Source: a bacterium
GTDB lineage: Bacteria > Lernaellota > Lernaellaia > JACKCT01
Direction of reading: 5' to 3'
DNA length: 50,729 nucleotides
Assembly (NCBI GenBank): GCA_019912885.1
Contig: JAIOHV010000087.1
Span: forward strand, 1-50,729
In this document: positions 7,005 to 29,335 of the stretch, in pieces
Layout: every line of letters starts with the position of its first letter
Numbering within the stretch: position 1 is the first letter of the stretch
Translations under genes and position numbers: made by a program
Notes under the pieces: generated by a model
What the model was told of the DNA's origin: nothing
What the model saw: the letters and a program-made list of their open reading frames with translations, nothing else
Database searches by the model: none

Positions 7005-7034
7005 GGCTGGCTCCCGGCCGCGCGGGCGCGCGGT

Positions 7035-7511
7035 TTATCGGAACGTGACGTCGAGGATTTCGAAGCTGCGAACACGGCCGGGCGTTTCGATATCGACGAT
7101 CTCGCCGGCGGTTTTGCCGATGAGCCCCCGCGCGATGGGCGACTTGATCGAGATGCGGCCGTTATCGACCTCGGCCTCGACCTCGCCGACGATCTGATAT
7201 TCGAGTTCCTCGTCGGATTCCAGATCCTGCACACGCACCGTCGCGCCGAACAGCACGCGCTCGCTGCGGATCGAAGAAGGGTCAACGACGTGTGCGCTGG
7301 CGATCGCCGCTTGCAGGCGGCCGATGCGCGCCTCGATCATTCCCTGCTGTTCCTTGGCCGCGTGGTACTCGGCGTTTTCGGAGAGATCGCCTTCCTCGCG
7401 CGCGGTGCCGATGGCCTTGGAGATGCGCGGGCGCTCCACCTTCACGAGGTGATCGAGCGCGGCCTTGATCTTCCGCAAACCGCCGACCGTGATCGGTGTC
7501 GTTTCACTCAT
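7035..7511 (-). CDS. greA: Transcription elongation factor GreA/GreB family
   Basis: GreA-type factors enter the RNA polymerase secondary channel and stimulate cleavage of backtracked transcripts. The 158-residue protein has the N-terminal coiled coil (GGLRKIKAALDHLVKVERP), the tip motif NAEYHAAKEQQG with acidic residues, and the C-terminal FKBP-like domain with YQIVGEVEAE and SPIARGLIGKTAGE. The length is typical. The ATG at 7511 (MSETTPITVGG) is chosen; an upstream in-frame start adds residues not seen in GreA. The two secreted-protein genes downstream lie close enough to be read through. Confidence 0.93.
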   Translation of the reverse strand: MSETTPITVGGLRKIKAALDHLVKVERPRISKAIGTAREEGDLSENAEYHAAKEQQGMIEARIGRLQAAIASAHVVDPSSIRSERVLFGATVRVQDLESDEELEYQIVGEVEAEVDNGRISIKSPIARGLIGKTAGEIVDIETPGRVRSFEILDVTFR

Positions 7512-7943: not shown

Positions 7944-9032
7944 TCAGATCAACTCGCTCGGGAACGGGCAAAGCTCTTCGTCGCCCTCGGGGAATCCGGC
8001 GCCGGGATAGAACTCGCCGTCGGATACCAGCACGACGCCTTCGCTGTAATAAGTCCGCAGGAACGTCTCGCCCCAGCACTCGGTCGCCAGAAACGCGGAG
8101 ACGTCAAAGCCGCCGGCCTGCATGTCATCTACGTCGCCGCCGGTCACCGAAAAGTCGGAGCGGCCGACGCCGTTTCCCTGCCATTTGGTCGCAAACCACA
8201 CGTCCTCGGCTTTGGCGAACTCGTCGCCGTGGTACTCTTCCCAATGCGCGTCGCCGTGCCAGCTCGCCGTAAACTCGCCCGTATTGTCCGCGTGGTTGTG
8301 ATAGGCGTAGTCCGCGGTGATCGGTCCGGGCAGGTCTTCGTATTCGCTGTCGTAGTCCTGCCAGTGGACGTTGATCTCGCGCCCGTCGGAGACGGTGTCG
8401 TAGTCGCAGGAGATCGAGCCTTCCTGATCCACTGTCGGGTCGAGCGACGCCGCAACGTCGAGGTCCAGATAGAACTCGCCCACGCCGCGGCGCGACGTGT
8501 CGGTGGAAACGGTCGTCGAGCCGGACCAGACCGTCGTGAACTCGTCCTCGGTGTTCTTGGCGCGCCAGCCGAGCGTGTATTCGTAGTCCTCGCCGCCGGT
8601 GTTCACCATCGTGAAGAGCATCTCCACGGGCGAAAGGCCGTCGTCGATCCACGGCCCCCACACGGCGGTGTCCTCGGACTCGCTCGTCGGCGGGTAGCTC
8701 GTGATCTCGTCGATGATCGAGATGAACGAGAGGATCGCGTAGTTCACCTCGCGCGTCGAATCGACCGTTTCCTCGTAGAGCGTCGCCAGCTCGCCGACGG
8801 ATTTGTAGTAGTCGTCCTCGTCCTGCCCGGGGATCGTCATGGCGAGGCTCGCCGCATCGGGCAGGGCGTCGCGCCAGTCGCTGTCGTCGTCATCGTCGCC
8901 CCCGCCGCCGCCGCCGCCGTCATCGTCGTCATCGTCGTCGTCATCGCCGCCGCCGCACGCGACAAGCGCGCCGGACAGGGCAAAGATCAAAACGGTGAGC
9001 AGCCAGGTTTTCTTGTCCCAAATGATACGCAT
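7944..9032 (-). CDS. Lipoprotein with poly-Asp/poly-Gly N-terminal spacer
   Basis: The 362-residue protein has a signal peptide (LLTVLIFALSGALVAC). The lipobox Cys is followed at once by GGG, nine Asp, seven Gly and five more Asp, a low-complexity tether. The remaining 300 residues form an acidic, aromatic-rich globular region with WGPWIDDG, YEYTLGWRAK, GEFYLDLDVAAS and paired cysteines near the end (ECWGETF, ELCPF). No family was recognised. The ATG at 9032 is preferred because GGAGGG lies 7-12 nt upstream; the ATG at 9047 would put that ribosome-binding site inside the gene. It probably has its own promoter and the terminator at 7882-7907. Confidence 0.8.
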   Translation of the reverse strand: MRIIWDKKTWLLTVLIFALSGALVACGGGDDDDDDDDDGGGGGGGDDDDDSDWRDALPDAASLAMTIPGQDEDDYYKSVGELATLYEETVDSTREVNYAILSFISIIDEITSYPPTSESEDTAVWGPWIDDGLSPVEMLFTMVNTGGEDYEYTLGWRAKNTEDEFTTVWSGSTTVSTDTSRRGVGEFYLDLDVAASLDPTVDQEGSISCDYDTVSDGREINVHWQDYDSEYEDLPGPITADYAYHNHADNTGEFTASWHGDAHWEEYHGDEFAKAEDVWFATKWQGNGVGRSDFSVTGGDVDDMQAGGFDVSAFLATECWGETFLRTYYSEGVVLVSDGEFYPGAGFPEGDEELCPFPSELI

Positions 9033-9223
9033 GTTTTTTCCCTCCATGGTCCTTCGCGCATTGCGCGATCGGGACGCAAGGATTGCCAGATTCGCGCGTT
9101 AGACTACGCCAACGCGGGCGAAGGTTCAAAGATTTCTTCACGAAATCACGCGTCAAATCTTTGATGGTGTTTCAGAAATCCGATATACCCCGCGCCCGTG
9201 CCCGTGCCCGAATCGCATCCGGC

Positions 9224-9263
9224 GGAACACAGAGAGCACCGAGGCGACACAGAGGACACGGAG
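9224..9263. repeat. ACACGGAG-type repeat, copy 2
   Basis: Degenerate GAACACAGAGAGCACC/GACACAGAGGACACGGAG units like those at 2493-2522. The 439-nt gap 9033-9471 contains this and the adjacent palindromic family but no recognisable gene. Confidence 0.6.
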
Positions 9264-9268
9264 ATTTC

Positions 9269-9405
9269 CTGGGAACGCCGAGCTCTAGCTCGGCTTGGGA
9301 CCGCGGGCGGCCCGCCCGCTTAGGAAAGGCGATTCGCCGGGAGCGCAGGCGTCCCGCCTGCTTTGAAAAACGCGATTCCCCGGGACCGCGGGCGTCCCGC
9401 CTGCT
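9269..9405. repeat. GGGACCGCGGGCGTCCCGCC-type palindromic repeat cluster, copy 1
   Basis: Four consecutive variants, each a GGGA-C-CGCGGGCG-CCCGCCTGCTT-like imperfect palindrome, are separated by short spacers. The same family fills 25564-25788. The units do not share a frame and form small hairpins. Confidence 0.7.
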
Positions 9406-9439
9406 TATAAGAATCGCGCTCGCCTTTCCCGCCTTGTGC

Positions 9440-9445
9440 TATCAT
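9440..9445 (+). promoter_or_regulatory. Candidate extended -10 element before the paralogous lipoprotein pair
   Basis: TGCTATCAT reads as an extended -10 (TGn then TATCAT), 26 nt upstream of the ATG at 9472. No good -35 is visible at 16-18 nt. A very similar TGCTATATT precedes nadA. Confidence 0.3.
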
Positions 9446-9471
9446 TCCACCGTCTTCGAGGGTAGCGACGC

Positions 9472-10449
9472 ATGAAGGCGTCAACGTATCGCATCATCAT
9501 CGTGTTCCTTGCGGCGTTCCTTCTCGCCGCTTGCGCGCCGAGCAGCGATGACGACACCGCCGACGCGGACGACGACACCGATAACGGTGTGCTCCCGGGC
9601 AACAACGATCGTACTTCGTCGGAAGACGATGATCCCAATGTCGATGACCCTGCCGATGACGGGGACGACGACGCATCTGTGGCGGACGACGACGCGTCGC
9701 TAGACGACGATGCCTTGGACGACGATGTGACCGATGACGACATAGCGGACGATGATGTCTTCGACGACGACACGGACAATCCCGCGCCGGACTGGCCGGC
9801 TGTCTGCGAACTTCCCCGCCCGCCCGTCGACGCCTGCTCCGACGCGATGCTGAAGCTCTATTGCGTCAACGGCTACCCGGTTGTCAAAGACGACATCCTC
9901 TACACGCAGATGCAGGCCATCGCCGCGTGCCGCGATGGAAGCGACCCGGTTTGGAGCGATATCGTTGATTGCTCTCGTAGCCTGCTGCCGGTGCCATGTT
10001 CGCTGTTTACCTTCGACTTCTTGGGGTATGCCATGAGCGGTTTTGTCGGGTGCCTTTCCGAAAAGGGCTGGCCGGCCGAGAGAACGGAGCTTTTCGACCC
10101 CAACGAGTGGCAGCTCGAAAACGATTTTCAGGTTCATCAGATCCTTCAGGCTCTGAATTACTGGGTTTATCTCCCGTTGCTCTATCCCGGCTGGCTGATC
10201 GAATTTGGCGGCGCGACCATCGGCCCCGGCGCTCAGGACATCCGTGCGCAATATGCCGGTGGGGGCGCTGACCCGCATTACGGAAACGGCGAGATGATCT
10301 TTTACATTGGCGACGCCGTGTCGGCGCAACCGGACGCGATCGAATTTTCGATGGATGGGTGCTGGCTTCAGATACCGGGCATGTTCGGCGGAGAATATTC
10401 GGAGACCTACGGTTCGATCGACGTCAAGCTCGTGGCGGTGACGCCATGA
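9472..10449 (+). CDS. Poly-Asp lipoprotein, paralog A of a tandem pair
   Basis: The 325-residue protein has a signal peptide (IIIVFLAAFLLAAC), a lipobox Cys near residue 21, and an acidic linker of DDDT/DDDA/DDDV units to about residue 102. A Cys-containing domain follows: VCELPRPP, DACSDAMLKLYC, PVVKDDILYTQMQAIAAC, DPVWSDIVDC. This core and the C-terminal part (YWVYLPLLYPGWLIEFGGA) align with the next gene, so the two are tandem duplicates. No known family was recognised. Conserved cysteines suggest disulfides in a periplasmic or surface domain. The stop overlaps the next start as ATGA, so both are co-translated. In the linker, Asp-coding codons alternate between GAC and GAT. Confidence 0.8.
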   Translation: MKASTYRIIIVFLAAFLLAACAPSSDDDTADADDDTDNGVLPGNNDRTSSEDDDPNVDDPADDGDDDASVADDDASLDDDALDDDVTDDDIADDDVFDDDTDNPAPDWPAVCELPRPPVDACSDAMLKLYCVNGYPVVKDDILYTQMQAIAACRDGSDPVWSDIVDCSRSLLPVPCSLFTFDFLGYAMSGFVGCLSEKGWPAERTELFDPNEWQLENDFQVHQILQALNYWVYLPLLYPGWLIEFGGATIGPGAQDIRAQYAGGGADPHYGNGEMIFYIGDAVSAQPDAIEFSMDGCWLQIPGMFGGEYSETYGSIDVKLVAVTP

Positions 10450-11459
10450 TCGCGGCCATCTTGCGCCTTCTGCCCGTCATATTCGCGGCGGTCCTGTTTC
10501 TTGCCGCCGTAATCGGATGCGTGCCGCCGGGTGGCGGCGATGTTTCGTCGGCGGCGGACGACGACACCGCGGATGACGACGACGCATCGCTCGACGACGA
10601 TTCGGCGGACGACGACAGCGTATTGGACAACGACGCGACGGATGATGACTCCATGCCGGACGACGATGCGTTGCCTGACGACGACTTCGGCGACGACGAT
10701 ACCGTCGCGGATGACGATACAACGATGGACGACGACACCCTCGACGACGACACGCTCGACGACGACACATTCGACGACGACACGGCCGATGACGACACCG
10801 GCGACGACGACACGACCTGGCCCGAGGTCTGCGATGACCCGTCTCCGCCGGCGGACGAATGCGCGGACGCGCTGTTCAAGCTGTACTGCGATGTTGGATT
10901 TCCGGTCATCAAGGACGACATCCATTACACGCAGTCCGGCGCGATCGCCGCATGCCGGCTCGGGACCGATCCGGTGTGGGCGGATATCGTCGATTGCTCC
11001 GCGGCGATTTTCCAGGTGGGTCTTTTCATTCACATGGGCTACCCCATCATGCCTTTTGTCGCCTGCATGCAGGAATCGTGGCCCGCGCAGCAGACGGGCG
11101 TTTTCGACGCCACGCTATGGAGGGCCGAAGAGCCCGCGTACCCTCCGCTTCATTTCTTTCAAAGTCTGAATTTCTGGGCATTCGACCTGTCGGTAATCAG
11201 TGAACCGCTTTACATCGAGTTTGCTGGTGCAGTTACTGATCCGGGTATACCCATGTTGCGCGGCCAATTCGTCGCCGCCGGCGGGGACGAACACACGGGC
11301 ACATTCGTGGTAATGAGCGAATCGGGAAACCTGACGTCGATGACGGACGATACCGTGACGTTCTGGCTCGCCGGCTGGTACGAGTGGGCGACGAGGTTTG
11401 GTTACGAAATCGGCGAGACCGGACACGAATTTCGGCTCGTACCTTTGGCCACGCCCTGA
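10446..11459 (+). CDS. Poly-Asp lipoprotein, paralog B of a tandem pair
   Basis: The 337-residue protein has a hydrophobic leader (LLPVIFAAVLFLAAVIGC), a lipobox Cys near residue 23, then an acidic linker of DDDT/DDDA/DDDS units up to about residue 120. The domain after it matches paralog A: VCDDPSPP, DECADALFKLYC, FPVIKDDIHYTQ, AIAACRLGTDPVWADIVDC, then FFQSLNFWAF and IEFAGAVTDPG. The ATG at 10446 overlaps the previous stop by 4 nt. Its linker is longer and built from different repeat units, so linker and domain evolve at different rates. Function is unknown. Confidence 0.8.
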   Translation: MIAAILRLLPVIFAAVLFLAAVIGCVPPGGGDVSSAADDDTADDDDASLDDDSADDDSVLDNDATDDDSMPDDDALPDDDFGDDDTVADDDTTMDDDTLDDDTLDDDTFDDDTADDDTGDDDTTWPEVCDDPSPPADECADALFKLYCDVGFPVIKDDIHYTQSGAIAACRLGTDPVWADIVDCSAAIFQVGLFIHMGYPIMPFVACMQESWPAQQTGVFDATLWRAEEPAYPPLHFFQSLNFWAFDLSVISEPLYIEFAGAVTDPGIPMLRGQFVAAGGDEHTGTFVVMSESGNLTSMTDDTVTFWLAGWYEWATRFGYEIGETGHEFRLVPLATP

Positions 11460-11480
11460 CGCCGCCGCGTGCACACCCCC

Positions 11481-11509
11481 CAGACAAAACCCCCGTTTGG
11501 TGCTATATT
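11481..11509 (+). promoter_or_regulatory. Candidate sigma-70 promoter of nadA
   Basis: CAGACA at 11481-11486 and TATATT at 11504-11509 are 17 nt apart, and TGC precedes the -10 as an extended -10. The nadA ATG is at 11602, giving a leader of roughly 85 nt. Confidence 0.35.
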
Positions 11510-11601
11510 TCCGGTAGATCTCGCGGTCGCATTCCGGCCGTTTTGAGCAACCTCGCGTGGCCGCGCTGCCGGCCCGCGCCATCGACCAAGGGAATGGGAA
11601 A

Positions 11602-12660
11602 ATGATCAACGCGGCGACCCTCGCCGAGACCAGAGAGCAGATGAAGCGCAAGCTTTCGCGAGTCGTGCCGGAGGCCGAAATCGCGCTGAAGGCCGAGCTC
11701 GTTTTCGAGATCAATCGCTTAAAGGCTGAGCGCAACGCGGTCATCCTCGGGCACAACTACATGGAGCCGGCGCTGTTCCACACCGTGCCGGACTTTGTGG
11801 GCGATTCGCTCGAGCTTTCGCGCATCGCCGCGACGACGGACAAGGATCCCATCGTTTTTTGCGGCGTGCGTTTCATGGCCGAGACGGCGAAGATCCTCTC
11901 GCCCGAAAAGCTCGTGCTGCTCCCCGCGAAGGAGGCCGGCTGCTCGCTCGCGGCCAGCATCACCGCCGACGACGTGCGCGCCCTCAAAAAGCGCTTCCCC
12001 GGCGTGCCGGTCGTGACATACGTGAACACTTACGCCGACGTGAAAGCGGAGACGGACGTTTGCTGCACGTCGAGCAACGCGGCGGCCGTCGTCGAGTCGC
12101 TCGGCGCGGAGCGCGTCATCTTTTTGCCCGACGAATATCTGGCACGAAACGTCGCGCACGAGATGGGCCTGTCGATCGCGTTCCCGCAAGACGGCGACGT
12201 CGGCGACGCGCAAATCCTTGGCTGGCGCGGGCGCTGCGAGGTGCACGAAAAATTCACCGTCGAGGACATCACGAACGTGCGCAAGCAGTTCCCGGACGTC
12301 ATCGTGCTCTCGCACCCGGAGTGCAGCCCCGAGGTCGTCGCGGCCTCCGACTTTTCCGGCAGCACCAACGCGATGATCCGCAACGTCGAACAGTCGTCCG
12401 CGCCGCGCTACCTGCTCATGACCGAGTGCGCGATGGGCGACAACATCGCCGCCGCGAATCCGGACAAGGAGATGGTGCGCCTTTGCAGCGTGCGTTGCCC
12501 GCACATGAACGAGATCAAGCTCGAACACGTGCTGCACGCGTTGCGTCATGATGAGCAGGCGATCGAGGTGCCCGAAGAGATTCGCGTCCGCGCGAAAAAA
12601 TCGCTCGACCGCATGCTTGAGATCGGCCCGCGAAAAGAGATGCGCGCGGCGAACTCGTAA
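11602..12660 (+). CDS. nadA: Quinolinate synthase
   Basis: NadA condenses iminoaspartate with dihydroxyacetone phosphate to quinolinate in NAD synthesis, using a [4Fe-4S] cluster. The 352-residue protein has AVILGHNYMEP, DFVGDSLELS, FCGVRFMAETAKIL, AKEAGCSLA, YVNTYADVKAETDVCCTSSNA, LSHPECSPEV, TECAMGDNI and SVRCPHMN. The cysteines in GCSLA, HPEC and RCPHM are the best candidates for the three cluster ligands. The ATG at 11602 follows a purine-rich AAGGGAATGGGAAA site; an in-frame ATG at 11557 lacks one. No nadB or nadC is next to it here. A candidate promoter is at 11481-11509. Confidence 0.94.
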   Translation: MINAATLAETREQMKRKLSRVVPEAEIALKAELVFEINRLKAERNAVILGHNYMEPALFHTVPDFVGDSLELSRIAATTDKDPIVFCGVRFMAETAKILSPEKLVLLPAKEAGCSLAASITADDVRALKKRFPGVPVVTYVNTYADVKAETDVCCTSSNAAAVVESLGAERVIFLPDEYLARNVAHEMGLSIAFPQDGDVGDAQILGWRGRCEVHEKFTVEDITNVRKQFPDVIVLSHPECSPEVVAASDFSGSTNAMIRNVEQSSAPRYLLMTECAMGDNIAAANPDKEMVRLCSVRCPHMNEIKLEHVLHALRHDEQAIEVPEEIRVRAKKSLDRMLEIGPRKEMRAANS

Positions 12661-20405: not shown

Positions 20406-20524
20406 CCGGTTTGCAAGAAAAAAATACGGCCCTCAAGCCTGCCACTTGACCTGGCTCAACTTCCCGCCGGCGCCCCTGTGGGGTTAGGGTGATCGTGGAC
20501 TCACATCCGCGGAAGGAACGCCCG

Positions 20525-20914
20525 ATGCTCGATCCCGCGCCGACGGTTGCCGAGCGTGTCGTCATCGAACGCCCGGAACACATGAGCCTCCTTGGCCTTC
20601 TGATGCGCGACCTGCTCGCCGCCAATATGGCCAACGCCCGAAAATTCAAGCGCGCCCGCAAACTTGCCGGCGACGTCCTGGTGAAGGCCGGGGAGATGGT
20701 CGTCACCCTGCGTTTCGCGGATGGGCGCATCACCATTTTCGACGGCGACCGCGGCGAATCCGTCGCGCGCGTCGCCGGCAACATGCCGGGGCTGCTCGCG
20801 GTGGTGACCGGAAACGGCCTTGTGCGCCGCGCGCTGCCGGGTGTACGGCCCGGCGGCAATCTTTTGTTCCTGCTCCGGATGCTTCCGCTCATCCGCGCGC
20901 CGCGCACGGCATAA
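20525..20914 (+). CDS. Small conserved-looking protein, possibly SCP2-like
   Basis: The 129-residue protein contains EHMSLLGLLMRDLLAANMA, GDVLVKAGEMVVTLRFADG and RITIFDGDRGESVARVAG, then a C-terminal hydrophobic stretch. The beta-strand pattern with VTLRFADGRITIFDG is reminiscent of SCP2 sterol-carrier-like folds. That is a weak resemblance and the function is unknown. The ATG at 20525 has GGAAGG about 10 nt upstream. It starts 26 nt before the FAD oxidase, so the two are likely co-transcribed. Confidence 0.7.
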   Translation: MLDPAPTVAERVVIERPEHMSLLGLLMRDLLAANMANARKFKRARKLAGDVLVKAGEMVVTLRFADGRITIFDGDRGESVARVAGNMPGLLAVVTGNGLVRRALPGVRPGGNLLFLLRMLPLIRAPRTA

Positions 20915-20940: not shown

Positions 20941-22362
20941 ATGAAGGATTTTCTTGTCGATCTCGTGGGGAGCGCCAACGTCCTTGATCGCCCCGAGGAT
21001 CTTGCCCCTTATCGCGAGGACATGACCGAGATCGCGCCGGTCGATCCCGCCTTCGTCGCGATCGTGACGATGCCGGAACAGATCGTGGAGATCGTCAAGC
21101 GCTGCGCCGCCGAACGCATGCCGATCACCGCGCGCGTCGCCGGCACGAACATCGGCGGCCTGACGATCCCCGCGCCCGGCGGGCTCGTGCTCGACATGTC
21201 GCGCATGAACCGCGTGCTTGACGTGAACGTCTCGGACATGGTCGCGGTGATCGAACCCGGCGTGACGCAGCAAAACCTGAAAGATTACCTCATCGAGCGC
21301 GACATCCCGCTGACGCTCGGCTATTCGCTCGCGCCGCCGTACACGTCGATCCTCGCGAACGCGCTTCTCGGCGGGCTGACGAACCGCTCGCTCAAGTACG
21401 GCGACATGTCCGACTGGATCGCGGGCCTGGAGGTCGTGCTCGCGGACGGCTCCCTTGTGAAGACCGGCGCGTGGGCGCTCTCCGACATCCCGTTCGGGCT
21501 CGTGCCGTTTCCCGACGTAACGGGGCTATTCGTTGCGTGGCAGGGGACGACGGGCATCGCCACGCGCATGGCGTTTCAGCTCTGGCCGCTGCACAAACTC
21601 AACAAGCGCCTTTTCATCATGAGCTACGGTGTGCCCGGCACCTACGACGCCATGCGCCGCCTGTGCCGCGCGGAGATCTGCGACGACATCGGCGGGCTGT
21701 CCTGGCCATCGGGCAAGATGCTGCTTGGCGTGCGTAAGCCCGCGCCCGCGCCCGCGCCGGGCGATCCGTTGTTTTTTCTCTACGTCGATCTCACCGCGGA
21801 GACAAACGACGAGATGCGCGCGAAGGAGGCGATCCTTGGCGGCGTGCTGAAGGACGTGGCGAAAACGGGCGCGAAGTTCGACGCGCCGCTCGCGATCGAG
21901 GACCTGGTGCAGGTCAACCCGAACCTCGTCGCCTTCGCGAATTTCCCCACGGAGTTGACGTTCCTGACGCAGCACCCCGGCGGCGGGCTGTCGTGGATCG
22001 GCACGTACGGCCCGCTCTCGCGCATGGAAGACGGCGTCGAGACGGGCATGGCGATCATGGCGCGGCACGGCTTCGCGCCGCTTGTCGTCTCGCGCCCGAT
22101 GCGCGGCGGGCATTTCGTCGTGCTGCGTTTCATCACCACGTTCGACAAGAAAGACCCGGAGGATGTCGCCCGCGTGCGCGCGGTGAACGAGGAACTGCTC
22201 GACATGACGGTGAGCAAGGGATTCATTATGTACAAAACGCCCGCCTGGGCGTGGGAGCGCCTGCGCCCGAAGATGGACCCCGGCATGCTCACGCTCATCG
22301 CGCGCGTCAAGAAGATGATGGACCCCGAGGGCCTGCTGAACCCGGGCAAGTTGGGGTTGTAA
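20941..22362 (+). CDS. FAD-linked oxidase (GlcD/VAO-type FAD-binding family)
   Basis: The 473-residue protein has the FAD_binding_4 (PCMH-type) layout. VAIVTMPEQIVEIVKRC and the ITARVAGTNIGGLTIP cofactor loop come first. VAVIEPGVTQQNLKDYL, GYSLAPPYTSILANALLGG and ATRMAFQLWPL follow. A C-terminal substrate domain ends in ARVKKMMDPEGLLNPGKLGL. It should oxidise a small hydroxy acid or phenolic substrate; which one is unclear. The start at 20941 follows CCGGAGG. Its last 270 nt occur again at 25291-25560 with 16 mismatches, bracketing an AT-rich insertion. The proximal copy keeps the full frame intact. Confidence 0.88.
   Translation: MKDFLVDLVGSANVLDRPEDLAPYREDMTEIAPVDPAFVAIVTMPEQIVEIVKRCAAERMPITARVAGTNIGGLTIPAPGGLVLDMSRMNRVLDVNVSDMVAVIEPGVTQQNLKDYLIERDIPLTLGYSLAPPYTSILANALLGGLTNRSLKYGDMSDWIAGLEVVLADGSLVKTGAWALSDIPFGLVPFPDVTGLFVAWQGTTGIATRMAFQLWPLHKLNKRLFIMSYGVPGTYDAMRRLCRAEICDDIGGLSWPSGKMLLGVRKPAPAPAPGDPLFFLYVDLTAETNDEMRAKEAILGGVLKDVAKTGAKFDAPLAIEDLVQVNPNLVAFANFPTELTFLTQHPGGGLSWIGTYGPLSRMEDGVETGMAIMARHGFAPLVVSRPMRGGHFVVLRFITTFDKKDPEDVARVRAVNEELLDMTVSKGFIMYKTPAWAWERLRPKMDPGMLTLIARVKKMMDPEGLLNPGKLGL
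22093..22362 (+). repeat. Proximal copy of a 270-nt duplicated gene end
   Basis: Aligned by hand with 25291-25560: 254 of 270 positions match, with no gaps. Homology begins at the CGCCCGATG codons and ends exactly at the TAA stop. Confidence 0.85.
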
Positions 22363-22403
22363 CCGTTTCGGCACCCGAAAAATTGCAACGCAAAACAAAA
22401 GTG

Positions 22404-22432
22404 TTGACAGAGCAACGAAAATTGCGATAAAA
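22404..22432 (+). promoter_or_regulatory. Candidate sigma-70 promoter of the AT-rich module
   Basis: A perfect TTGACA at 22404-22409 is followed by GATAAA (22426-22431, 16-nt spacer) or ATAAAA (22427-22432, 17-nt spacer). The first start codons are at 22518 and 22527. Confidence 0.5.
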
Positions 22433-22526
22433 GGCAGGCAAGACATTCGGAAATTGCAACTGCGGGCGCATTCGTCTCCGATCAGTACGAGATTCGAACG
22501 CCAGAAAAAGAGGAAGGATGAATATT

Positions 22527-23216
22527 ATGCATTTGGCGGTAGATATAGCGATGAATTTCGCGCTGCCAATTCTTATCCTCATCCTTGCTGTCCGTGTCGA
22601 AGAGTCGGCATGCGATACTAGCTACTGCGAAAAGGCTCGCAGTTATCTTGATAATAAACGCCAAAAATTGCCCGAACGCCGCAACCTGCGTCGACGACGG
22701 CAACGAATTCGACGTGAATCCGACGCGGTAGATTTTCCGGCTTATTCGCGAAGGTCGAGTAGTTTTTATCTTGGGAGTATCGCGCTTACCCTATCCTTTT
22801 TTCTTACCAATTCGGTTTGGTCGTTTTACGGGCGGCAATATTATTATAATATTCCTCTGTCGTTTGTTAAATTTGACGCATTTTTTGGAAAAACTTGGTT
22901 TTCTGATTCTGATGATGATCCGGTCTTACTAGATTTTCGTTCATTTTTATTGTTTACGCTTTTATTTTTAGCTCTGTTATTGGCGTGTATCTATATACGC
23001 GCTAGAAAAACGCGGGCTCGATATAACATTCAAGATATATCCGTTTACAGCGAGCGAATGTGGGATTACATTATAGACGGAAATTTCGTAAAATATTGCA
23101 AGGAGTCGCTGATCCTAAAAACGCCATTCGAGGCTACGTTTGCATGGTTTGGACTCATTTTGCAGCTGTTCCTTATATCTAATGTTAGCTCAAATCCTGG
23201 ACAAGGTTTATCATAA
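22527..23216 (+). CDS. AT-rich module protein 1: small polytopic membrane protein, unknown
   Basis: The 229-residue protein has about four hydrophobic helices: near residues 5-25 (NFALPILILILAVRV), 80-105 (YLGSIALTLSFFLTNSV), 140-162 (FLLFTLLFLALLLACIYI) and near the C-terminus (FAWFGLILQLFLISNV). A very basic segment, RRNLRRRRQRIRRE, sits between helices 1 and 2. No family was recognised. AGGAAGG lies 9 nt before the ATG at 22527, which decides the start; the ATG at 22518 directly abuts that site. Its stop overlaps the next ATG by one base (TAATG), so the two products are probably made together. Codon use is unlike that of the neighbours. Confidence 0.7.
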   Translation: MHLAVDIAMNFALPILILILAVRVEESACDTSYCEKARSYLDNKRQKLPERRNLRRRRQRIRRESDAVDFPAYSRRSSSFYLGSIALTLSFFLTNSVWSFYGRQYYYNIPLSFVKFDAFFGKTWFSDSDDDPVLLDFRSFLLFTLLFLALLLACIYIRARKTRARYNIQDISVYSERMWDYIIDGNFVKYCKESLILKTPFEATFAWFGLILQLFLISNVSSNPGQGLS

Positions 23217-25276
23217 TGCTTGTGTTGCTACGTTATCTACTCGTACAACTTTTTGTGGCCGGATCGGTCTTATTGGCGATTTGGATAATTCGCTTAATGT
23301 TGAACCAAATATCGAATTACTTGACGAAATATCGTTCGATGAGCGGCAGCGGGGTTTATCTCGTCTGGCAATATATCAAGTCAGAGCGAATGATTTTTTT
23401 GGGCGTGGTTCTTTTTTATACGATATTTAACTCAATTTTGCTAACTTATCCTCCTGCGTCTTTTGACACTCTCAACAGCGCGAAACATTTTCATGTTTCG
23501 CGCCTTAAGCTAGGAGTTTTGAACGTATTTGGGCTTACATACTTCTATTTAATCGGGTGCGTAATATTTTATGTATCTCGAATAATTACCGGCGTTATCG
23601 TATTTCTGCGCGGCGTCGACTTGACAAAACTAATAAAATGGGCGCCACGCGACAAATTAGTTGTTGAAATATCGCTTTATTTGCTTGCGATTGTATTAGC
23701 GTTAGTTTCTCCTTTTTTAAACGTAGTTGCACTTTATTTAATGATGGTTCCTTCCGAATTCGCTGTTTTAATGATGGCGATCGGCTTCGTTCGTACAATT
23801 ACCGCGTTGAGAGGTCGCCAAACTGACCTATTTTTCCAAGAGATCTCGACCAATGTTTTCCCGATTATCGACGTTGAGGAACTTTCGGCGCAGTACAATC
23901 AAATCAAACACAATGATGAGAGTACGATATTAAAAGAAAAACCATCGAATGCACTTTCCTTTCTTGAAAGATATCTATCGCGCTTGTTAAATCAAAAGAA
24001 ATGGTTTTTAGCCTCTTTGGTCAATATCGCTTGTCTACTATTATGTATCGCTGTCGAAAAGCGTCCGTACAAAGCGGCCGCGTTGCGGAGAATTATTGTC
24101 CGTTGGGCGATATATACAAAGGATTACGAGACGGCGCGTTCAATAGCACTGCGTTCACGTAATCCGCAAGGCCGACTTCTTTCGATGAAATGCGAGGCGT
24201 TATGGAGGACGGGTAAGAAAACACAAGCGTTAAAAACAGTTTCCGAGAGGATAGAAGTAATACGGAGTAAGGGTGAGCATAAGTCGCCGACTAGCGGTGA
24301 ATTTCGCGAACTCGGTTTCTTGTTGCTTCAACAGGCGACCTATTATATGAATATAAGTGATGAGGAACTACAGCGGCATGAGGTGATTGGAATCGACAAA
24401 TATGAGTTGGCGAAAAATATCGCATTTAAAGTGATTTCTGATTTTGATTTTGATTGCGCCAAGGCGAGAAATATTATTGCTGAGTGCCAGTTGCGAAGCG
24501 CACTAAGGAATTTGACATCGAATGTAGCTGACCACAAAAAGCTTCCGGAGGATTATCAACTAAGGTTTGTGGAACCTTGTCAATTGGCGGCGTCGGCATG
24601 TGTTAATATGGAGAAAGAATATAGGTATATTCATCCGGACTTCATGTATACATTTGGCCGGGCCGCAATCCTTTCCGGAGTCAACATTCAACTGGGAGTT
24701 CGTTGTTTGTTGAACAATGTATACTTTCACGGCCACGGTCCATCGAGGTATTTTGCCGCTATTTTATTTTCCGTTGGTTCGGAAAGCTTGAAAGTATCGG
24801 AATTTTTTCTCAGTCCTATTTTTAGCAATGCCTCCCAAATATTCTCCAATTTATTGACAAGAGCACTAACTCATAGAATGCGTATTAACGCATGGGCGTT
24901 GTATTCTAGTGATGGAAATATGTCAGAGCGTTGTTTGTCGGATCCGTCTTGTTACGAGCGTATTGATATCGAGCGCTGGCGGGCTGGCGGCGTCGTTTTT
25001 AATGCGACGAATCCGATAGATGTATCTATGAGTATCCATAATCATGTGCGTCGGGCGTTGATATGGTATCATTTCTGGGATTTTTCCGTTGGCCGTGTAT
25101 GGATCAAAATAGCCAACGGTTGTGAAAAAATTATGCGTAAATATGGCGCGGCTCGCGCGCGAGTACCTGCCAGTCCGAACGATCAATTCGTTTCTGTGGA
25201 GCGGGGTATAAGGCAGATATGGGCACTCGCGTGTGCATCGGGTACAAATCCGGGTTTAACGTCGACCATCATTTAA
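23216..25276 (+). CDS. AT-rich module protein 2: membrane protein with helical-repeat-like C-terminal domain
   Basis: The 686-residue protein begins with about five to six membrane segments in the first 200 residues (LLVQLFVAGSVLLAIWIIRL, MIFLGVVLFYTIFNSILL, VFGLTYFYLIGCVIFYV, ISLYLLAIVLALVSPF, FAVLMMAIGFVRTITAL). Another hydrophobic stretch is near residue 265 (FLASLVNIACLLLCIAV). After that, about 400 residues are predicted by eye to be helical: YKAAALRRIIVRWAIYTKDY, ARSIALRSR and ALWRTGKKTQALKTVSERI resemble TPR-like pairs. No catalytic motif was recognised. A membrane anchor plus a cytosolic helical sensor is one reading; it is inference. Its 3' end abuts the duplicated oxidase fragment. 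Confidence 0.7.
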   Translation: MLVLLRYLLVQLFVAGSVLLAIWIIRLMLNQISNYLTKYRSMSGSGVYLVWQYIKSERMIFLGVVLFYTIFNSILLTYPPASFDTLNSAKHFHVSRLKLGVLNVFGLTYFYLIGCVIFYVSRIITGVIVFLRGVDLTKLIKWAPRDKLVVEISLYLLAIVLALVSPFLNVVALYLMMVPSEFAVLMMAIGFVRTITALRGRQTDLFFQEISTNVFPIIDVEELSAQYNQIKHNDESTILKEKPSNALSFLERYLSRLLNQKKWFLASLVNIACLLLCIAVEKRPYKAAALRRIIVRWAIYTKDYETARSIALRSRNPQGRLLSMKCEALWRTGKKTQALKTVSERIEVIRSKGEHKSPTSGEFRELGFLLLQQATYYMNISDEELQRHEVIGIDKYELAKNIAFKVISDFDFDCAKARNIIAECQLRSALRNLTSNVADHKKLPEDYQLRFVEPCQLAASACVNMEKEYRYIHPDFMYTFGRAAILSGVNIQLGVRCLLNNVYFHGHGPSRYFAAILFSVGSESLKVSEFFLSPIFSNASQIFSNLLTRALTHRMRINAWALYSSDGNMSERCLSDPSCYERIDIERWRAGGVVFNATNPIDVSMSIHNHVRRALIWYHFWDFSVGRVWIKIANGCEKIMRKYGAARARVPASPNDQFVSVERGIRQIWALACASGTNPGLTSTII

Positions 25277-25290
25277 TTTACTGGACTATG

Positions 25291-25560
25291 CGCCCGATGC
25301 GCAGTGGGCATTTTGTCGTGCTGCGCTTCATCACCACGTTCGACAAGAAAGACCCCCAGGATGTCGCCCGCGTGCGCGCGGTCAACGAGGAACTGCTCGA
25401 CATGACGGTGAGCAAGGGATTCATCATGTACAAAACGCCGCTCTGGGCGTGGGAGCGCCTGCGCCCGAAGATGGACCCCGGCATGCTCGCGCTCATCGCG
25501 CGCGTCAAGAAGATGATGGACCCCGAGCGCCTTCTGAACCCGGGCAAGCTGGGCTTGTAA
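25291..25560 (+). pseudogene. Truncated 3' copy of the FAD-linked oxidase gene
   Basis: This copy encodes the last 89 residues of the oxidase (from RPM...GHFVVLRF to LLNPGKLGL) with 16 nucleotide differences from 22093-22362. It has no cofactor-binding part. An ATG at 25288 could give a 90-residue peptide but there is no ribosome-binding site. It is probably the displaced end of the original gene or of a second homologous gene. It is GC-rich like the flanks. Confidence 0.8.
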
Positions 25561-25563
25561 CCC

Positions 25564-25788
25564 TTGGGACCGCGGGCGGCTCGCCCGCTTATGTTGCGGT
25601 TACGCCGGGAGCGCAGGCGTCCCGCCTGCATCGATCTTGGGACCGCCGAGCGCCTGGGAGCGCAGGCGTCCCGCCCGCTTCGACCCAGGGACCGCCGACC
25701 TCATGCTCAGCAAGTCCGGGGAACGCCGAGTTCCAGCTCTGCCATTACGTTCGCCCCCGGGACCGCGGGCGGCTCGCCCGCTTCGAAC
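25564..25788. repeat. GGGACCGCGGGCGGCTCGCCCGC-type palindromic repeat cluster, copy 2
   Basis: At least five imperfect palindromic units (GGGACCGCGGGCGGC, GGGAGCGCAGGCGTCCCGCC and variants) follow the truncated oxidase end directly. Same family as 9269-9405. No gene is seen between 25561 and 25848. Confidence 0.7.
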
Positions 25789-25848: not shown

Positions 25849-27174
25849 CTACAACAGATTCGCCGCCAATTCCGCGAGGTCGGAGCGTTCGCCCTTCACG
25901 AGCGTCATGTGGCCGGCGAGCGGCTGGTCCTTCATGCGTTCCACGACGTAGGTCAGGCCGTTGGATGAGGCGTCGAGGTACGGGTTGTCGATCTGGTAAG
26001 GATCGCCGGTGATGACGATCTTCGTGCCCTCGCCGCTACGCGTGACGATCGTCTTGATCTCGTGCGGCGTGAGGTTTTGCGCCTCGTCCACGATCAGGAA
26101 CTGGTGCGGGATCGATCGGCCGCGGATGTACGTGAGCGCCTCCATTTCGAGAAGGCCCTGGTCCTGCAACTCGGTCAGGCGCGAATACTGCGCGGCCTTG
26201 TCCTCGCGCGAGGCGAGCAGGAACTCCAGGTTGTCGAAGATCGGCTGCATCCACGGGCGCAGCTTCGCCTCGATGTCGCCCGGCAGAAAGCCAAGCTCGC
26301 GGCCCATCGGATAAATCGGGCGCGAGACGAGAAGGCGCTGATAGGTCTCCTCCACCGTCACCTTTTGCAGCGCGGCGGCAAGGGCCAGCAGCGTCTTGCC
26401 GGTCCCCGCCTTGCCGACGAGCGTCACCAGACGCACGCGGTCGTCGAGTAGGATGTCGAGCGCGAAACGCTGCTCGCGGTTTCGCGGCATGATGCCGAAG
26501 ATCGCCCCGTGCAGCTTCTTGATCGGCTCGACGCGGCCCGCGTCGACCACGCGGGCCAGGGCGGTGTGGCTCGGGTTGCCCTCGTCCACGAGCGTGACGA
26601 ACTCGTTGAGATGCAGCGGCGGATCGGCCGCCGGCGGGGCCAGGAAGCCTTTGGCGTAAAGATCGTCGATCGCCTCGCGCGGCGCGGTGACCTCGCGCGA
26701 GCCGGTGTAAAGCTCCTCGATGTTGACCTTCGCGTTTTCGAAGTCCTGCGCCTCGATATCCATCGCGTCGGCCTTGATGCGAAGGTTGGTGTCCTTCGTG
26801 ACCAGGACGGTGAGCGCCTCGGGGTGCTCGGCCCGGATGCGCGCGGCGACGGCGAGGATGCGGTTGTCCTTGGTCGGCTCGAAGAGCTTGCGGTCCAGGT
26901 GGTCGTCGAGCTGGTTACGCACCTCGATGCGCAAGGTGCCGCCGTTTGGCAGCGTCACGCCCTGGTTCAGCTTGCCCTGCGCGCGAAGTTCGTCGAGCTC
27001 GCGCGATGCGGCGCGCGCGTTGCGCCCGATCTCGTTCAGCTCTTTTTTGAACCGGTCGATTTCCTCGATGACGGTGATCGGGACGATGACGTGGTTGTCA
27101 TCAAAAAGGAAAATCGCATTGGGGTTGTGGAGCAGGACATTGGTATCGAGGATGAAATATTTGGGTTGTCCCAT
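25849..27174 (-). CDS. PIN-domain plus PhoH-like ATPase (YlaK type)
   Basis: The 441-residue protein starts with a PIN nuclease-like domain (KYFILDTNVLLHNP, then TVIEEIDRFK, and acidic residues in VLVTKDTNLRIKADA, up to about residue 150). It continues with a PhoH ATPase domain: LVGKAGTGKTLLALAAAL (Walker A, Lys260), SRPIYPMGRELGFLPG, HQFLIVDEAQNLTPHE (Walker B) and IVITGDPYQIDNP. PIN-PhoH proteins act as ATP-driven RNases or helicases on RNA and are implicated in stress responses. The ATG at 27174 has GAGGAA about 11 nt upstream. No antitoxin-like gene is adjacent. A 16-bp palindrome lies 80 nt upstream. Confidence 0.9.
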   Translation of the reverse strand: MGQPKYFILDTNVLLHNPNAIFLFDDNHVIVPITVIEEIDRFKKELNEIGRNARAASRELDELRAQGKLNQGVTLPNGGTLRIEVRNQLDDHLDRKLFEPTKDNRILAVAARIRAEHPEALTVLVTKDTNLRIKADAMDIEAQDFENAKVNIEELYTGSREVTAPREAIDDLYAKGFLAPPAADPPLHLNEFVTLVDEGNPSHTALARVVDAGRVEPIKKLHGAIFGIMPRNREQRFALDILLDDRVRLVTLVGKAGTGKTLLALAAALQKVTVEETYQRLLVSRPIYPMGRELGFLPGDIEAKLRPWMQPIFDNLEFLLASREDKAAQYSRLTELQDQGLLEMEALTYIRGRSIPHQFLIVDEAQNLTPHEIKTIVTRSGEGTKIVITGDPYQIDNPYLDASSNGLTYVVERMKDQPLAGHMTLVKGERSDLAELAANLL

Positions 27175-27649: not shown

Positions 27650-29335
27650 ATGTTGAGACGCATGGGAATCTTGATCTTTATTGGCGTGTTCGCGGTCGTG
27701 CTCGGCGCGGCCTGTACCAAGGATGACGCCGAGGACGCCGCCGAGGCGCTCGGATTCGAGATCACGTTCGACGAAGACGACGTCGGCGCGGCGACGCCCG
27801 ATGGCTGGCACTTCATGTTCGCGATCAAGCTCGACGAGGATCAGGCGGGGCTGATCGACGAGGACTTCGCGATCGACCTGTCGCTGCTCTCGCCGTACAT
27901 CGATTTCTCGGAGATCGACCAGATGATCGCGATGGCCAAGGTCGCGGATATCCCCGGCTACGGCACGCGGCTGCGTTTTGCGAACCGCCTTATCGTCAAG
28001 GACGAAAAGCTGCGGCTCGACTCGGACAACAATGACCTGCTAGGCGATTCCGTCGGCTCGGACGGCGCGGGCACCTACGCCGCGTATTACGCCGACGAAC
28101 AGAACGGATTCATTCGCGGCGACGTGGTCGATTGCGACGGCGACGCGCTCGAAGGCCTGCTCGCCATCATCACCGGCAGCCCCTTCTTCACGCACACCGC
28201 CTCGAACGGCTCCTGGGCCCTGCCGACGCTCGAGGGTAAGCCGCAGGCGTACACCGTCTTCGGCGATGATTGCGCGTGCAGCGGCGGCGCGCCGTGCGGC
28301 GACACGAACGCCACGCCCAATCCAAAGGACCCCGACGGCACGCCCGATAGCGAGACGTTCGACGACGAGACCGTCGTGGTGGATAGCGGCGAATGCGTCT
28401 GCTGCCCGCCGGAACCGGTCGACGACGATGACGACGACATGGACGACGACGACATGGATGACGACACGTCCGACGATGACACCGGCGACGACGACACCGG
28501 CGACGACGACACCGGCGACGATGACACGGGCGATGACGACACCGGCGACGACGACACGAGTGACGACGACACGGGCGATGATGACACGTCCGACGACGAT
28601 ACCGCGGACGACGATACCGCGGATGACGATGACGACGATGATGACGACGACGCCGATGACGATGACGACGACGGCACATGCGTAAACTTCGAGGATGGCA
28701 GCCTTTCCGGCTGGTCCTTCACGTCGGGCTGCAACCTTTATGGCGTGTCATCGGACGGATACGGCACGCTGTTCGAGGACGGCAGCGAAGGCGCGTATCT
28801 CTACGTCTCCTCCGGCGGCAGCGATGTCGCGAGTTGCACGCTTTCGGCCACGTTCGACGTGCCGGACGGCGCGACGGAGATCGAGATCAGCTACAACTTC
28901 GTCAGCCAGGAGTACGAGGAGTGGGTCGGCAGCATCTACAACGACATCTTCACGGCGATCGTGCAGGGCGCGCCGGACTACCTCGTCAACCGCACGGTCA
29001 ACAATATCGCGACGGATGACGACTGGCTGGCGATCGGAGACGACTCGCCGGCGGCCACCATCGCGGGCATCGCGGGCTCCGCGGACGCGGCCTTCAATCC
29101 GACAAGCGACGATCCGCACTCCAACGGCCCGCAACTGTTCGACGGCATCCTGAAGTGGGACGCGAATGCCGGCGAAAATCCACGCGGCGAGCCCGAGGAC
29201 GACAACGTCGGAAAGACCGCGACTGTGATGCTGCCCGAGGATCAGACGACCGTGACCGTGCTCGTGACGGTTTCGGATGTCGGCGACCGCATCTACGACT
29301 CCGCGGGCGCCATTGACTGGATGTGTTTCCGGTAA
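27650..29335 (+). CDS. Large lipoprotein with internal DDDTG repeat linker
   Basis: The 561-residue protein has a signal peptide (ILIFIGVFAVVLGAAC) with the lipobox Cys near residue 22. An N-terminal domain to about 255 follows, with a Cys-rich end (DDCACSGGAPC, ECVCCPP). A 90-residue Asp-rich linker of DDDTG/DDDTS/DDDTA units comes next, then a beta-rich C-terminal domain. The last part has FEDGSLSGWSFTSGC and YNFVSQEYEEWVGSIYND, a pattern seen in surface anchor-type jelly rolls; no family is certain. GGAGG lies 9 nt before the ATG. The linker separates two folded domains, unlike the N-terminal linkers of its neighbours. It is probably a single-gene transcript. Confidence 0.8.
   Translation: MLRRMGILIFIGVFAVVLGAACTKDDAEDAAEALGFEITFDEDDVGAATPDGWHFMFAIKLDEDQAGLIDEDFAIDLSLLSPYIDFSEIDQMIAMAKVADIPGYGTRLRFANRLIVKDEKLRLDSDNNDLLGDSVGSDGAGTYAAYYADEQNGFIRGDVVDCDGDALEGLLAIITGSPFFTHTASNGSWALPTLEGKPQAYTVFGDDCACSGGAPCGDTNATPNPKDPDGTPDSETFDDETVVVDSGECVCCPPEPVDDDDDDMDDDDMDDDTSDDDTGDDDTGDDDTGDDDTGDDDTGDDDTSDDDTGDDDTSDDDTADDDTADDDDDDDDDDADDDDDDGTCVNFEDGSLSGWSFTSGCNLYGVSSDGYGTLFEDGSEGAYLYVSSGGSDVASCTLSATFDVPDGATEIEISYNFVSQEYEEWVGSIYNDIFTAIVQGAPDYLVNRTVNNIATDDDWLAIGDDSPAATIAGIAGSADAAFNPTSDDPHSNGPQLFDGILKWDANAGENPRGEPEDDNVGKTATVMLPEDQTTVTVLVTVSDVGDRIYDSAGAIDWMCFR
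28421..28675 (+). repeat. In-frame coding minisatellite (GAC-GAC-GAC-ACC-GGC)n
   Basis: About ten 15-bp units encoding DDDTG/DDDTS/DDDTA, flanked by runs of Asp codons, lie within the lipoprotein gene. Units differ mostly at silent GAC/GAT and ACC/ACG positions. The reverse strand therefore shows long open frames rich in Val, Arg and Ser that are not genes. Confidence 0.8.

Follow-up and report, generated by a model that had tools for sequence, protein, structure and literature searches.

How did two AT-rich genes come to lie between an intact oxidase gene and a second copy of that gene's own end? The question is raised by a locus on a 50,729-nt stretch of DNA that we refer to as the window. 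The features of the locus are the following.

20489–20914, forward strand: u141, a small protein of unknown function, 5′ of the oxidase and beside it in most relatives examined.
20941–22362, forward strand: FAD-linked oxidase of 473 aa, intact, the target gene (PF01565, 5e-28; PF02913, 1e-6); orthologues in family members are 66–69% identical.
22092–22364, forward strand: proximal repeated gene end, codons 384–473 plus stop, probably the incoming allele (repeat comparison).
22365–22526, forward strand: module leader with a GC content of about 0.46 and an SD-like GGAAGG ahead of the ATG at 22527 (sequence).
22518–23216, forward strand: m232, predicted membrane protein of 232 aa with two strong hydrophobic segments (ORF, hydropathy).
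23216–25276, forward strand: m686, predicted membrane protein of 686 aa, N-terminally with some five hydrophobic segments, C-terminally long and helical (ORF, hydropathy).
25290–25562, forward strand: distal copy of the oxidase end, a 90-codon remnant, probably the displaced host original (repeat comparison).
25566–25782, forward strand: species-specific intergenic repeats of the GGGACCGCGGGCGGCTCGCCCGC type, directly 3′ of the distal tail (matches in own genome).
25849–27174, reverse strand: PhoH-family ATPase with a PIN domain, the native flanking gene (PF02562, PF13638).

The last ~270 nt of the oxidase gene (22092–22361) recur downstream with 16 mismatches when compared base by base, the same 254 of 270 gap-free identities that an earlier note on this DNA had counted. 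As aligned over 276 nt (22092–22367 and 25290–25565), the direct repeat is ungapped, has an offset of 3198 nt and shows 93.8% identity (E = 3e-118). Similarity between the copies is absent just 5′ of 22092 and again from about 3–5 nt past the stop codon, and both copies read through to an identical stop, as had been stated. The host oxidase is whole by virtue of the proximal copy, again in agreement with the earlier reading: all 473 codons are intact, and both oxidase domains are matched. The distal tail is free of stops and frameshifts and starts 13 nt past the stop codon of m686; at the right junction, an ATG (25288) stands in the same reading frame as this tail. This junction is abrupt, at codon 384, and nothing upstream of it is homologous to the resident oxidase. 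The mismatches are evenly spread along the tails with no visible crossover point, and no crossover core can be singled out, the longest exact run common to both tails being 46 nt.

Between the copies, the GC content is about 0.42, versus 0.64 over 1.72 Mb of the same genome; the rest of the window lies at 0.58–0.71, save for a few lower blocks (lowest 0.53). The two inner genes have GC3 values of 0.39 and 0.44, against 0.81–0.91 in the neighbouring genes and in both tails. By GC and GC3, the insert is foreign. The description of everything between the copies as AT-rich applies to its blocks of 0.39–0.45 GC, but less so to the outer 150–300 nt (0.45–0.57). The insert proper (22365–25289) is 2.9 kb long and almost entirely occupied by m232 and m686, neither of which matches an integrase, excisionase, transposase or other element gene in Pfam, PHROGs or NCBIfam. 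The reported absence of an integrase thus holds for the inner genes, but not for the genome, where six tyrosine-type and four serine-type recombinase matches were found elsewhere.

The cassette is single-copy in its own genome. At the inspected oxidase loci of relatives with readable 3′ sequence, including two genomes of the same family, neither a second oxidase tail nor an AT-rich downstream block is present. The earlier note had named, as speaking against its reading, conservation of the 3.2-kb arrangement at uniform composition across the lineage; this was looked for in these relatives and not found. The nearest relatives, which belong to the same family and not to the same genus, have the oxidase and phoH on different contigs, and comparison at this family level yielded no empty site and no donor genome. 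The left side of the locus is ancestral, given that u141 accompanies the oxidase in most of the relatives examined.

Inspection of the sequence behind each tail offers an indication of which one is native. Repeats of the GGGACCGCGGGCGGCTCGCCCGC type start a few nucleotides past the distal tail; the proximal tail passes straight into the module. These repeats belong to an intergenic family, GGGACCGCGGGCGGCTCGCCCGC / GGGAGCGCAGGCGTCCCGCCTGC (in the window at 25566–25782 and 9297–9404), which has 46–51 matches in 1.72 Mb, none in shuffled sequence and none in the oxidase regions of relatives. Because the species' own intergenic repeats stand behind the distal tail, this tail is likely to be the original one. 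The distal copy also has the change G389S, losing a Gly that 18 of 22 relatives possess, as expected for a relict out of use. Judged by these sequence features, the distal tail is probably the displaced original end of the host gene, and the proximal one was probably brought in, along with the cassette, from a close relative; the synonymous changes between the tails cannot be polarised reliably.

The 16 differences, by which the incoming and resident alleles can be told apart, comprise 10 synonymous and 6 nonsynonymous changes (dN 0.030; dS 0.18 by NG86 to 0.28 by YN00; dN/dS 0.11–0.16). In a single, simple simulation conditioned on 16 differences, and thus on small counts, so few nonsynonymous changes were obtained with P = 0.03 when the distal copy was neutral throughout and with P = 0.07 when it was neutral for 75% of the time, the best fit being about 0–50% neutral time. 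We take this as modest evidence that both tails diverged mostly as ends of working genes, be it as alleles of related strains or as paralogues. The synonymous divergence also points to a close relative, and not to a distant AT-rich organism, as the immediate source of the cassette, and the displaced tail serves as a readable trace of the donor.

We consider it rather probable that the cassette, together with the oxidase end of a close relative, was inserted by homology at the end of the resident gene. The AT-rich m232–m686 cassette would have entered the lineage joined to the oxidase end of a closely related strain or species; this end would have paired with the resident oxidase, and recombination would have swapped it in. 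Replacement of the resident end by the incoming one would leave the enzyme intact. At its other end, which lacks homology, the incoming DNA would have been linked into the resident gene at codon 384, or circularised at that point, and the resident gene end would persist downstream as the 90-codon remnant. The direction of transfer, the donor, homologous recombination and the linear or circular form of the incoming DNA are all steps that we infer from the anatomy of the locus.

Acquisition of a foreign module is the best reading because of the GC3 values, the single occurrence, the absence in relatives and the synonymous-rich divergence of the tails. To this extent, the earlier proposal of a Campbell crossover of a circle stands, in that a foreign AT-rich module was gained by recombination in the 3′ end of the oxidase gene; the circle, however, represents one possibility out of at least three that fit, among them Campbell crossover, homology-facilitated illegitimate recombination and e14/icd-type integration without an integrase. 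Campbell-type insertion-duplication would likewise give direct repeats around an insert and one intact gene copy, but it requires a circular donor, and no donor replicon with the module and the gene end was found in viral, phage or plasmid collections. Homology-facilitated illegitimate recombination, which can act on linear DNA homologous at one end and so dispenses with a circle, would give this structure too; it has been proposed for the type VI secretion system (T6SS) arrays of Vibrio cholerae and for Rhs loci (PMC5361080). The T6SS effector–immunity arrays and Rhs C-terminal displacement resemble the present locus in having a foreign pair at the end of a conserved region, the old 3′ part downstream and no integrase; unlike it, they are repeated hotspots with toxin–immunity cargo, whereas here there is a single event behind a metabolic oxidase, the host gene has stayed intact and the cargo is orphan. 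Genes for ComEC and DprA are present in the genome, which is compatible with DNA uptake or transformation, though not diagnostic of it.

Site-specific integration of an element carrying a replacement gene end, as with prophage e14 in icd, would leave a like anatomy, with the proximal gene intact and the original tail displaced downstream. In E. coli, e14 (and phage 21) inserts into the 3′ end of icd, a metabolic gene that is made whole again by the proximal copy, and the old end stays downstream; the two icd ends differ by 12 changes, of which 10 are synonymous (PMC4759930), a mostly synonymous divergence near the 10:6 observed here. An element of this kind that carries a gene tail leaves the same structure, so the scar has a precedent. 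The tyrosine and serine recombinases encoded elsewhere in the genome would also suit such an integration, for which the integrase must have been lost later or have acted in trans. However, e14 is an integrase-bearing lambdoid prophage with 11-bp direct repeats, whereas here two genes nearly fill 2.9 kb that hold no integrase, excisionase or other element gene. The homology at icd is 165 nt, and the repeat of ~270 nt exceeds it. We therefore regard site-specific integration as unlikely. A restored target and a displaced old end are found here as in icd, provided that the proximal tail is the incoming one, as we infer; a recombinase gene is not. We class the locus as a further case of a scar type that is already known, here with orphan cargo and lacking a recombinase.

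Synonymous-rich divergence would likewise be expected if two oxidase paralogues had stood in tandem and been separated by insertion of the AT-rich genes, with deletion of the 5′ portion of the second paralogue. Long paralogue-like tandem repeats do exist elsewhere in the genome (e.g., L203 and L176), but no tandem oxidase pair was found among the relatives examined, and the scenario requires, in addition to the insertion, a deletion of >1.1 kb that finished close to the stop codon of m686. We hold it to be somewhat less likely still. Doubtful to a slightly greater degree is the notion of a recombinase-free mobile cassette in which a carried 3′ end of the host gene serves as the homology arm. 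If it were true, the cassette between its ~270-nt direct repeats could exit as a circle by RecA and enter related strains at the same gene, and since the gene would be restored at each entry, selection would maintain the function of the carried tail.

Duplication of the gene end in place when the cassette was inserted, with the distal copy decaying since, would need the fewest sources and make a foreign tail unnecessary. The synonymous-rich divergence and the simulation argue against it: dN/dS is 0.11–0.16, an always-neutral distal copy has a simulated P of 0.03, and 6% divergence has produced neither a stop nor a frameshift, which makes this origin improbable. An assembly chimera of two co-assembled strains, although conceivable in a fragmented draft genome of 230 contigs that is probably metagenomic, is very improbable, because the contig overlaps measure precisely 141 nt, which points to assembly with k = 141, and no exact match between the tails exceeds 46 nt, so that a repeat-driven misjoin is unlikely, and because both junctions lie inside one 50.7-kb contig, with a shift in composition at each. 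Contig C95, whose 141-nt terminal overlap had made it a candidate circle, was rejected as such: it is the nusG–rpoBC–fusA region and probably ends in duplicated tuf genes.

Insertion by homology together with a close relative's gene end would mean that a small foreign gene pair can settle 3′ of a conserved gene without a recombinase and leave the gene unbroken, here in a little-studied lineage. Should more such scars turn up, duplicated gene ends could reveal recombinase-free cargo that island finders based on integrases miss. In the 1.72 Mb sampled (36% of the genome), no further repeat pair brackets an AT-rich block. The closest second case, on contig C92 (L091 of this genome, G000; 8081–12068), was rejected, as the repeat pair there does not enclose the AT-rich gene. 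This gene encodes a TIR-domain effector (PADLOC PDLC00733, E = 2.5e-12) and is flanked by a radical SAM gene and by an oppositely oriented, truncated radical SAM gene end, of which a 199-nt tail recurs 0.9 kb away with 95.5% identity. The second tail copy adjoins sequence that matches the body of the first radical SAM gene at 100% identity, suggesting tail swapping between inverted paralogues. On contig C157 (L114), a 247-nt piece from within a branched-chain amino acid permease-like gene occurs twice (7019–7265 and 9965–10211), the copies being 2.9 kb apart and 97% identical, with no AT-rich insert. Contig C169 (L126, 18434–19507) carries type IV pilin-like genes in tandem, with 95% identity over 424 nt.

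The two cargo genes are co-oriented and translationally coupled, the start codon of m686 overlapping the stop codon of m232 (TAATG). For m232, a start at the ATG at 22527, which lies 3′ of the SD-like GGAAGG and gives 229 aa, is more likely than the longer frame. Hydropathy predicts both products to be membrane proteins; an AlphaFold model of m686 from the single sequence had a pLDDT of 42 and was taken only for its broadly helical character. Searches of Pfam, PADLOC, PHROGs, NCBIfam and viral contigs gave no credible relatives of either protein, and for m686 none were found in PDB sequences, phages, plasmids, a genome-contig scan or 98 whole genomes either. Among anti-phage defence families, neither protein had a PADLOC match at E up to 1. 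We regard a weak PHROG match to the cargo (E = 9e-4 across 25 residues) as spurious; another weak match, of m232 in genome G005 (E = 0.007) is noise, as it lies antisense to a response-regulator/GGDEF gene.

As credible relatives are lacking, the function of the cargo proteins can be read from context only. Other AT-rich islands in the genome encode the TIR effector on C92 and, on C9 and C4, two methyltransferase/restriction-like loci, so that a role of m232 and m686 in defence or antagonism is a reasonable guess. On the C9 island (L055, 6000–12000), a type II-like methyltransferase gene apparently shares an operon with the genes for a protein that carries two HATPase domains and for a 567-aa protein that is uncharacterised; the island may be an unusual restriction locus. 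Elsewhere in the window, an exported-looking protein (27650–29335) has a long Asp/Thr-rich repeat (DDDTGDDDT), which is encoded by a 15-nt tandem array at 28378–28690. Several further proteins of the genome (L099, L076 and L074) have an Asp-rich C-terminus, often with CCGC, CGC or CGG as the last residues.
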